This document shows positions 24,072 through 26,921 of a stretch of DNA of 64,000 nucleotides, piece after piece. Every line of letters starts with the position of its first letter. The first letter of the stretch is position 1. The stretch is from Clostridiaceae bacterium DTU079 (lineage in GTDB: Bacteria; Bacillota; Clostridia; Acetivibrionales; Acetivibrionaceae). A program made the translations under genes and the position numbers. The stretch spans positions 36,078 through 100,077 of the forward strand of contig LFSC01000005.1 in the NCBI GenBank assembly GCA_001512505.1, in the 5' to 3' direction. The notes beneath the pieces were generated by a model. That model saw nothing but the letters and a program-made list of their open reading frames with translations, had not been told where the DNA came from and did not search any database.

Positions 24072-24164
24072 TTCAGAGCCTGTCAATACGACACGTATAG
24101 AAAGAGCATCCATTCCCCAAAAGTGAGTTTTGATCGACTCCCGGGAGTATTTACAGGCTCTGAA
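24072..24164. repeat. 93-base element bounded by an 18-base inverted repeat
   Basis: TTCAGAGCCTGTCAATAC (24072-24089) matches the reverse complement of 24147-24164 at 17 of 18 positions. The interior also holds a perfect 12-base palindrome, ACTCCCGGGAGT (24137-24148), that touches the right arm. It could be a miniature mobile element or a long hairpin at the 3' side of two convergent genes. No T-tract follows on either strand. Confidence 0.65.
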
Positions 24165-24245
24165 CTTGCAAAGCTTAAGTTTTTTAATAGTATTCTTTAT
24201 AGTCTTAATGATCCCATTAATTGATAAGCAAATTTGGGTATACAA

Positions 24246-25694
24246 TCAAACCCGGATATCCCTTTCACCCTTTTCCATTCTCGCCAATGCATCAATGACA
24301 AATTGCCTTGTTTTTGCATCTTCAAGAGTGTCTATATATTTGCTTATCGCTTTTTCACCGGCCTCTTTCGTGTCACCGGCGGCATAATCCAAAAGATATT
24401 CCTTCAGTGTCAGGATTGCATTGGGCATGCAAAAATTATGCACAAAACTCGATTTTGCAACCTCCATAAAATGTTCTCCTGTTCTTCCCGCTCTGTAGCA
24501 TGCTGTACAAAAGGAAGGAAGACTCTCTGTTTCACATGTTTCCCGGATCACATCGTCAAGGCTTCTAACATCACCCAACTGAAATTGCTCTTTATCCGGC
24601 ATCATATTGCCCATGGATTTCTTGTATCCCCCAACACCTATTCTGGTTCCGGCATCAATCTGCGAAACACCCAAAGGAATAACCTCTCTCCTTACTTCGG
24701 GTTTTTCCCGAGCCGTAAGAATCAATCCCGTATAGGGCACAGATAATCTTAAAATTGCCACCAACTTCTTAAAATCCTCATCACTTACGGCATATTCCGG
24801 GTTTGAGGCATAATCTGTACCGATAGCAGGCTCTATTCTAGGGAAGGAAATGGTATGTGGGCCAACACCGTTATACTTTTCCTCCAAATGTATTGTATGA
24901 TATAAGAGTCCTATTGCCTCGAATCTCCAATCATAAAGGCCGAACAATGCACCGATCGCAACGTCATCCAGTCCGACATCCAGTGCTCTGTCCTGAGCAT
25001 AAAGACGCCACCGGTAGTGTCCTTTGATTGTTCCTTCCGGATGCATCCTTCTATATGTCTCATGATGGTAAGTTTCCTGGAACACCTGAAACGTACCTAT
25101 ACCGACTTCCTTCAGTTTCTTTAACTCTTCCCGGGACAGTGGAGCGCAGTTTATATTTGCCCTCCTGATTTCACCGTTTCCGCATTTTGTGTTATATACC
25201 TGACGGATGCTTTCACATATGAAGTCTATATCCGTTTCAGGAGATTCTCCGTAAACCAGCACCGTCCTCTTTTGCCCCTCGCTTATCATAATCCTTATCT
25301 CCTGTGATATCTCATCCATGGTGAGAGTTCTTCTCTCAATCATTTTATTTTCTCGCCTGAACCCGCAGTACTTGCAGTTATTGGCACATTTATTGCTTAT
25401 ATACAACGGTGCAAAAAAGACAATACGGTCACCGTAGACCTCTCTTTTTAACTTGCTTGCAAGGGCATACATTTCATTAATGGTTTCTTCATCCTTGTTT
25501 TGTATGAGAATAGCCATTTCCTCAGGCTCCAACCTGATTTTCTTCTCTGCCTTTCCAAGTACCCTTCTTACATCATCTTTGCTTGGATTTTCCCATTTAT
25601 TAAGCTGTTCCCATATTTTATCATCATCGATAAAATCTTTTTCCATCAAATCGTATTCTTTAAAGTCCGCTTTGTATTTGTCAAGATAATTCAT
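24246..25694 (-). CDS. hydG: [FeFe]-hydrogenase H-cluster radical SAM maturase HydG
   Basis: Radical SAM lyase that cleaves tyrosine to make the CO and cyanide ligands of the [FeFe]-hydrogenase H-cluster. The radical SAM cluster motif is CANNCKYC. The C-terminal auxiliary-cluster motif CTACYRAGRTGEHFM with a later Cys (HNFCMPNAILT) separates HydG from the related ThiH. The 482-residue length is typical. GGAGGG precedes ATG 25694. HydE and HydF genes are not in the window. A 260-base structured leader with its own promoter and a terminator-like hairpin lies upstream, so expression may be controlled by attenuation. Confidence 0.94.
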   Translation of the reverse strand: MNYLDKYKADFKEYDLMEKDFIDDDKIWEQLNKWENPSKDDVRRVLGKAEKKIRLEPEEMAILIQNKDEETINEMYALASKLKREVYGDRIVFFAPLYISNKCANNCKYCGFRRENKMIERRTLTMDEISQEIRIMISEGQKRTVLVYGESPETDIDFICESIRQVYNTKCGNGEIRRANINCAPLSREELKKLKEVGIGTFQVFQETYHHETYRRMHPEGTIKGHYRWRLYAQDRALDVGLDDVAIGALFGLYDWRFEAIGLLYHTIHLEEKYNGVGPHTISFPRIEPAIGTDYASNPEYAVSDEDFKKLVAILRLSVPYTGLILTAREKPEVRREVIPLGVSQIDAGTRIGVGGYKKSMGNMMPDKEQFQLGDVRSLDDVIRETCETESLPSFCTACYRAGRTGEHFMEVAKSSFVHNFCMPNAILTLKEYLLDYAAGDTKEAGEKAISKYIDTLEDAKTRQFVIDALARMEKGERDIRV

Positions 25695-25955
25695 TAAAAA
25701 TCCCTCCTATTAATTCCTCTAATATAAACATAAAGCCCTTTGCCAGGAACACAGAAGAATCCTTGACAAAGGGCATAAACCTCTCTACCGCAAAATCTCC
25801 TCTGCCCCGGAAAAGCATCCTCGGCATCAGAATAATATCCGCCACACTCTCCTCCTCAAGCCTATGCTCTTGGAGTCAAGCCTTGTTTAAAGCGGAAGTT
25901 CATAATTGAAATATTAATTTTTATTCGGTCAATAAATAAATAATACTGTACCTTT
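25695..25955 (-). ncRNA. Candidate structured cis-regulatory leader of hydG
   Basis: From the predicted start near 25955, the leader forms several stems: CTCC..AGC / GCT..GGAG (25851-25874), TGCC..GGA / TCC..GGCA (about 25803-25826), and a terminator-like hairpin (25735-25774). The middle is G-rich and differs in composition from the surrounding AT-rich intergenic DNA. I do not recognise any described riboswitch consensus. The last hairpin ends about 40 bases before the hydG start. Confidence 0.55.
25722..25774 (-). terminator. Terminator-like hairpin inside the hydG leader
   Basis: On the minus strand, GCCCTTTGTCAAGGA pairs with TCCTGGCAAAGGGC (8 perfect outer pairs, then a near-perfect inner stem), followed by TTTATGTTTATATT. 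It lies between promoter and gene, the position expected of an attenuator. Confidence 0.6.
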
Positions 25956-25961
25956 ATTATT

Positions 25962-25990
25962 ATATTACGCTTATGATATTGCCATGTCAA
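25962..25990 (-). promoter_or_regulatory. Strong SigA promoter for hydG
   Basis: On the minus strand, TTGACA and TAATAT are separated by exactly 17 bases. This puts the start near 25955 and leaves a leader of about 260 bases. Confidence 0.75.
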
Positions 25991-26270: not shown

Positions 26271-26921
26271 ATGCAATATGAAGTGGCATCCATTCCCCTT
26301 GGTCAACACCGCTTACCCCCACTCCCGTACCCTTACAACGCACTGGAACCTGTAATCAGTGAAGAAGCCTTAAGAATTCATCATGACATACACCACAAGG
26401 CCTATGTTGACGGTCTGAATACAGCGGAAATCAATCTGGCGGAAGCTCGCCGTAACAATGACTACAATTATATAAAGTATTGGGAAAATGAATTGGCTTT
26501 CAACGGTTCAGGACATATATTGCACAGTATTTTCTGGACCGTTATGGCTCCCTTGGGAAGGGGAGGACAGCCCGGTCCCCACACTTTATTCCGGATTAAC
26601 AACTATTTCGGAAGCTTTAATAGCTTTAAGGAGCAGTTCAAAAATGCAACCGAAAAGGTGGAAGGATCCGGTTGGGGAATACTGACATGGCAGCCTTCCT
26701 GGAGACGATTGGAAATTCTGCAATCGGAAAAGCATCAGAACTTAAGCCAATGGAGCGGAATACCCATTCTGGTTTGCGACGTGTGGGAACATGCCTATTA
26801 TCTTGACTATCAAAACAAGAGAAAAGAGTATATCGACAACTGGTGGAATTTGATTAACTGGTATGAGGTAGAAAGAAGACTGCTCATGGCGATGAACGGA
26901 CAAGTGCCTCTTACACAGTAA
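26271..26921 (+). CDS. sodA: Fe/Mn superoxide dismutase
   Basis: Converts superoxide to oxygen and hydrogen peroxide. Metal ligands are visible in HHDIHHKAYVDGLN, GHILHSIFW, and CDVWEHAYYLDYQNKRKEYIDNWW (Asp and His). At 216 residues it is slightly longer than usual, with a short N-terminal extension (MQYEVASIPLGQHRL). Metal choice (Fe or Mn) cannot be told safely. GGAGG lies 10 bases before ATG 26271. It precedes two LysM/transpeptidase genes on the same strand; in Bacillus spores SodA assists coat cross-linking, so a spore or envelope link is possible but is inference. Confidence 0.92.
   Translation: MQYEVASIPLGQHRLPPLPYPYNALEPVISEEALRIHHDIHHKAYVDGLNTAEINLAEARRNNDYNYIKYWENELAFNGSGHILHSIFWTVMAPLGRGGQPGPHTLFRINNYFGSFNSFKEQFKNATEKVEGSGWGILTWQPSWRRLEILQSEKHQNLSQWSGIPILVCDVWEHAYYLDYQNKRKEYIDNWWNLINWYEVERRLLMAMNGQVPLTQ

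Follow-up and report, generated by a model that had tools for sequence, protein, structure and literature searches.

The window analysed here, a stretch of 64,000 nucleotides from contig LFSC01000005.1 of Clostridiaceae bacterium DTU079, carries hydG on its minus strand. The gene is preceded by a leader of ~260 nt (minus strand, about 25955-25695) that comprises a promoter, two hairpins (P1 and P2) and an intrinsic terminator. A first-pass annotation of the sequence had named the gene as hydG, assigned it a TTGACA-17-TAATAT promoter, and described a leader of several stems ending in a terminator-like hairpin and a T-rich tail. All of these were recovered in our analysis, at the following positions:

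25962-25990, minus strand: sigma-70-type promoter TTGACA-17-TAATAT (sequence; an equivalent precedes P2 in 6/6 relatives examined)
25847-25880, minus strand: hairpin P1, copy 1 of the symmetric element (minimum-energy structure and pairing across six leaders)
25798-25831, minus strand: hairpin P2, copy 2 of the symmetric element and the most conserved core (minimum-energy structure and 37-sequence alignment)
25799-25806, minus strand: GGCAGAGG, the P2 3' strand, proposed 5' half of an antiterminator (duplex energy and permutation test)
25735-25774, minus strand: intrinsic terminator hairpin GCCCUUUGUCAAGGA...UUCCUGGCAAAGGGC, dG -20.9 (folding; compensatory stem variation in relatives)
25721-25734, minus strand: T-rich tail of the terminator, TTTATGTTTATATT (sequence)
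24246-25694, minus strand: hydG, [FeFe]-hydrogenase H-cluster radical SAM maturase of 482 aa, the putatively regulated gene (TIGR03955, E 3.4e-148; Pfam Radical_SAM and BATS)

The leader folds at -79.3 kcal/mol, as compared to a shuffle mean of -62.6 (z -3.4) and below all 200 dinucleotide shuffles, and its minimum-energy structure consists of two hairpins with 2x2 purine loops followed by the terminator hairpin. The hairpin loops in the window are CAUAGG and UGCUUU, with other lengths found in the alignments of relatives. In the window, as in each of the six relatives examined, a promoter of the form TTGAC-N16-18-TANNNT is predicted 72-131 nt upstream of P2, in the absence of transcript data.

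No hydE or hydF gene accompanies hydG in the window; the hydF of this genome is found, together with TM1266, on another contig (L120/L234). An Fe/Mn superoxide dismutase gene (26271-26921, plus strand) is divergent from hydG, placing an oxygen-defence gene beside an oxygen-sensitive maturase. Just downstream of hydG (24083-24165) is a 12-bp perfect inverted repeat, TTCAGAGCCTGT ... ACAGGCTCTGAA, whose arms are about 55 nt apart.

An open frame runs through the leader, and might encode a small protein translated together with hydG. The earlier annotation had given this frame 65 codons, and had held that it lacks a spaced start and that RNA is the better reading. The length and the point on the start do not stand: the frame, of 54 codons, has a GTG start with AGGAGG 5 nt upstream, and overlaps the start of hydG. 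This AGGAGG is the 3' strand of P1. The preference for RNA does stand, since the frame is interrupted by stops in all six relatives examined; the changes in the stems are compensatory, the frame is not protein-like, and it has no Pfam match. The small protein was dropped on account of the stops in relatives; it is largely refuted, and we give it next to no weight.

The symmetric hairpin element

P1 and P2 represent one element, present twice in the window leader, whose core is a hairpin of 33-34 nt. Each of its strands reads approximately CUGA-N4-RAGG, giving the hairpin a near two-fold symmetry. The layout of P1 is CUU-GA-CUCC-AA-GAG-loop-CUU-GA-GGAG-GA-GAG (general form CUU-GA-N4-AA-GAG / CUU-GA-N4-GA-GAG), and that of P2 is UCU-GA-UGCC-GA-GGA-loop-UCC-GG-GGCA-GA-GGA (general form UCU-GA-N4-GA-GGA / UCC-GG-N4-GA-GGA). 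Within the hairpin, 4 bp separate two tandem internal loops of G·A type, and we infer that sheared G·A pairs form in these loops.

When 14 genomes of the family were searched at the DNA level, three others proved to share the leader core, with 73-77% identity, so that the conservation in relatives on which the annotation had staked its reading is indeed present. In L029 the leader lies directly before hydG, whereas in L002 and L030 (Herbivorax sp. ANBcel31) it precedes hydF in a hydF-hydG arrangement, about 1.3 kb further upstream of hydG, and in L034 and L033 it also stands before hydF. The leader therefore tracks whichever gene opens the maturation operon.

Alignment of six leaders (A1), most of them found by DNA search, supports the symmetric structure of both hairpins: 99.2% of cells are paired, five pairs vary on both sides, and covariation scores 0.333 as compared to 0.221 in shuffles (0/500). 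When the partners were slid by 1-3 columns as a control, paired cells fell to 42-67%. For P1 alone, 98.3% of cells are paired in the six leaders and three pairs show change on both sides. A larger alignment of 37 P2 hairpins (A2), taken from upstream of maturases and including other lineages, has 94.3% of cells paired, 74 double-change cells, and a covariation of 0.675 versus 0.236 in shuffles (sd 0.023; 0/500). Among the variants of its 4-bp stem are UGCC/GGCA, CCGC/GCGG, GACC/GGUU, UUGC/GCAA and GCCC/GGGC. Since part of A2 was selected by a rule demanding four pairs, its covariation is partly circular; A1 is less affected, because most of its sequences came from the DNA search.

Distribution of the element and its gene context

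A covariance-model search of clostridial genomes, named in the annotation as a way to check the leader, yielded matches that fall mainly before hydrogenase maturation genes. The model (R3) was built from A2, and its matches were chosen without gene context. Scanning 391 genomes of the class gave matches in 90 genomes at E <= 0.05, with about 20 expected by chance; the R3 E-values are only rough. Of the 88 matches examined, 59 (in 57 genomes) precede [FeFe]-hydrogenase maturation genes, and at 30 bits or more the linked fraction is 34 of 40. The first hyd gene downstream of the linked matches is TM1266 (32 cases), hydG (11), hydF (7), hydE (6) or aspA (3), all three aspA cases being aspA-hydF operons, and the hairpin ends 7-255 nt before the gene (median 81). 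Matches lacking a hyd gene are mostly inside long open frames, as expected of chance matches. For a few of the linked matches, the hairpin of the same genome had served to train R3. The class scan is a cleaner test than the covariation of A2, since its matches were picked without regard to neighbouring genes.

Matches extend beyond the class. Among 300 genomes scanned across the phylum, 34 carried R3 matches, and all 19 matches that were checked lie before hyd genes. Further matches were found in Spirochaetia (L051), Pleomorphochaeta (L052) and Nitrospiraceae (L081), and in a deltaproteobacterial contig outside the training set (L108). Tandem copies, seen as adjacent R3 matches, occur in L176, L201, L215, L245 and L171, the second match being weak in L215 and L171. 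Elsewhere in the window genome R3 matched no further hairpin, and it detected none in many genomes that bear TM1266, including close relatives of the window genome.

Two matches lie before transporter genes: one precedes an SsuA/NMT1-like ABC transporter operon (L189, G201:C1:2550766-2550810), and the other, accompanied by a second similar stretch, precedes an ECF transporter S component (PF12822; L264, G696:C1:1039242-1039285). These may be non-maturase targets, but each is a single case and could be due to chance. In Elusimicrobia (L054-L057, L094), a related-looking hairpin with UCGG replacing RAGG, not matched by R3, lies before a TM1266-hydG region.

Predicted termination, possible effector and competing explanations

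A terminator is predicted within 150 nt after the hairpin in 44 of the 59 linked matches. In the window, a duplex of 8 bp and -17.5 kcal/mol can form between GGCAGAGG of the P2 3' strand and CCUUUGUC in the 5' arm of the terminator (25772-25765). The corresponding segments of L038 are likewise complementary (GCGGAAAGG with CCUUUCCGC), and strong pairing between P2 3' strand and terminator arm is also seen in L058 and L159. Over 65 leaders, the pairing of each P2 3' strand with its own terminator averages -9.62 kcal/mol, as compared to -8.36 kcal/mol (sd 0.28) when permuted, and none of 20,000 permutations gave a mean as low as that of the own pairs. This test ignores relatedness, and pairing is weak in a sizeable share of single leaders (mean rank fraction 0.41). 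An antiterminator formed by CUUGAC of the P1 5' strand and GUCAAG of the terminator was also considered; on inspection its pairing is possible in the window, L002 and L030 but is lost in L029 and L034, and it was replaced by the version that uses the P2 3' strand.

As the 3' strand of P2 could also pair with the leader's own terminator, P2 and the antiterminator are predicted to be mutually exclusive, and a stabilised P2 should therefore mean termination. In the model that we propose, without effector the P2 3' strand would pair with the terminator 5' arm as an antiterminator, leaving hydG on; an effector that stabilises P2 would allow the downstream terminator to form, turning hydG off. In L160, L183, L202 and L249, which are among several clades, the hairpin ends ~10 nt or less from the start codon and adjoins the Shine-Dalgarno sequence. 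There a stabilised element would be expected to block ribosome access, giving a response of the same sign as the terminator platform. The switching, its sign, and the choice of a small molecule connected with H-cluster assembly, and not a protein, as the effector are all inferences from sequence.

The annotation had recognised no familiar riboswitch core, and Rfam agrees: against Rfam 15 the whole window has no match at gathering level and the leader no relevant match at permissive E-values, while five relatives have none at permissive thresholds and 20 further loci none at gathering level. A search of the open literature in full text found no description of the element. Hydrogenase, hydE, hydF and hydG all go unmentioned in a survey from 2024 that covered noncoding RNAs of 50 genomes (PMC11109978), as does hydrogenase in PMC7266159. 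An undescribed cis-regulatory RNA is strongly supported, because the element is conserved before hyd genes across classes and phyla, shows compensatory pairing, is accompanied by terminators and lacks an Rfam family; among the criteria for a cis-regulatory leader RNA, that of a conserved compensatory structure upstream of related genes is satisfied, while transcription from its own promoter rests on prediction and conservation of the promoter. Of the annotation's proposal of an undescribed riboswitch or attenuator, the new regulatory RNA thus holds on the strength of conservation, compensatory pairing and the Rfam null, while its nature as a riboswitch, as opposed to a leader read by a protein, has not been shown. 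We consider it probable that the leader represents a class of cis-regulatory RNA not previously described, acting on [FeFe]-hydrogenase maturation genes, with an effector-stabilised P2 as the off state.

The architecture resembles that of transcription-terminating riboswitches in having a conserved structured domain, a predicted competing antiterminator, an intrinsic terminator, a single downstream pathway and putative expression platforms of more than one kind; it departs from them in its core of one symmetric hairpin, present twice in this leader, its unknown ligand and its lack of an Rfam family. Two similar tandem hairpins before a terminator also recall the two-hairpin antiterminators targeted by ANTAR proteins. 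ANTAR targets have hexaloops carrying A1 and G4, whereas the loops of the leader vary in length and sequence and its conserved bases sit in internal loops. The requirement for two such hexaloops is not met by CAUAGG and UGCUUU in the window, nor by the other loop lengths in relatives. The RAT antiterminators of BglG/LicT, like the present element, are hairpins of about 30 nt with two internal loops before a terminator, but their internal loops and consensus are different, and RAT overlaps the terminator while P2 is separate from it.

What reads the hairpin is less clear. A new riboswitch class, spread across bacterial classes and phyla, whose symmetric hairpin, bearing paired tandem G·A loops, would detect a metabolite or a metal species from H-cluster assembly and shut down maturation, is a tentative reading with about as much to be said against it as for it. 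As a matter of judgement, in the absence of ligand, transcript or regulation data, a small molecule is our first guess for the effector and the putative regulator TM1266 our second; we prefer the small molecule mainly on account of the loop nucleotides, which are conserved between phyla, and of the transporter matches, which would suit a ligand. The two-fold symmetry counts against this preference, since it also suits binding by a dimeric protein, and so do the tandem copies. It is possible, if not what we would expect, that a symmetric regulator, most plausibly TM1266, binds the hairpins and represses through the terminator or Shine-Dalgarno route, often autogenously. TM1266, of about 80 aa (TIGR03959, PF21699), is annotated as a putative iron-only hydrogenase system regulator and shares its gene linkage with the hairpin, but it is a protein of unproved function. 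In 32 of the 59 linked matches the first hyd gene after the hairpin is TM1266, which is present in most hairpin-bearing genomes, that of the window included. Also in favour of this rival are the likeness of TM1266 to the NikR C-terminal domain, its relationship to a chain whose structure is known only under the name of hypothetical protein (2nzc), and the recurrence of the element ahead of single genes within operons. However, in G035 and G211, near-complete if slightly incomplete assemblies, hydG is preceded by the hairpin and TM1266 finds no match, many genomes carry TM1266 without a detectable hairpin, and RNA binding by the family was not found in the open literature. We know of no RNA target of this family.

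A plain attenuator or processing hairpin, with fixed low read-through and no effector, would account for the terminator predicted directly after the hairpin in most leaders. It would leave unexplained the invariant loop nucleotides across phyla, the tandem copies and the hairpins abutting Shine-Dalgarno sequences, and we regard it as unlikely. Even more doubtful is the idea that the element belongs to a known class of riboswitch and has diverged too far for the Rfam models; several riboswitch classes do have small purine-rich internal loops, but the Rfam searches described above, permissive for the window leader and five relatives and at gathering level for the 20 further loci, led us to set a known class aside.

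To our knowledge, the cellular control of [FeFe]-hydrogenase maturation is largely open. Such control is to be expected, since HydG makes CO and cyanide from tyrosine. With a defined 33-nt element and a listed set of targets, control of maturation becomes directly testable. The element also provides a way to approach the unknown function of TM1266, and could serve as a control part in hydrogen production.
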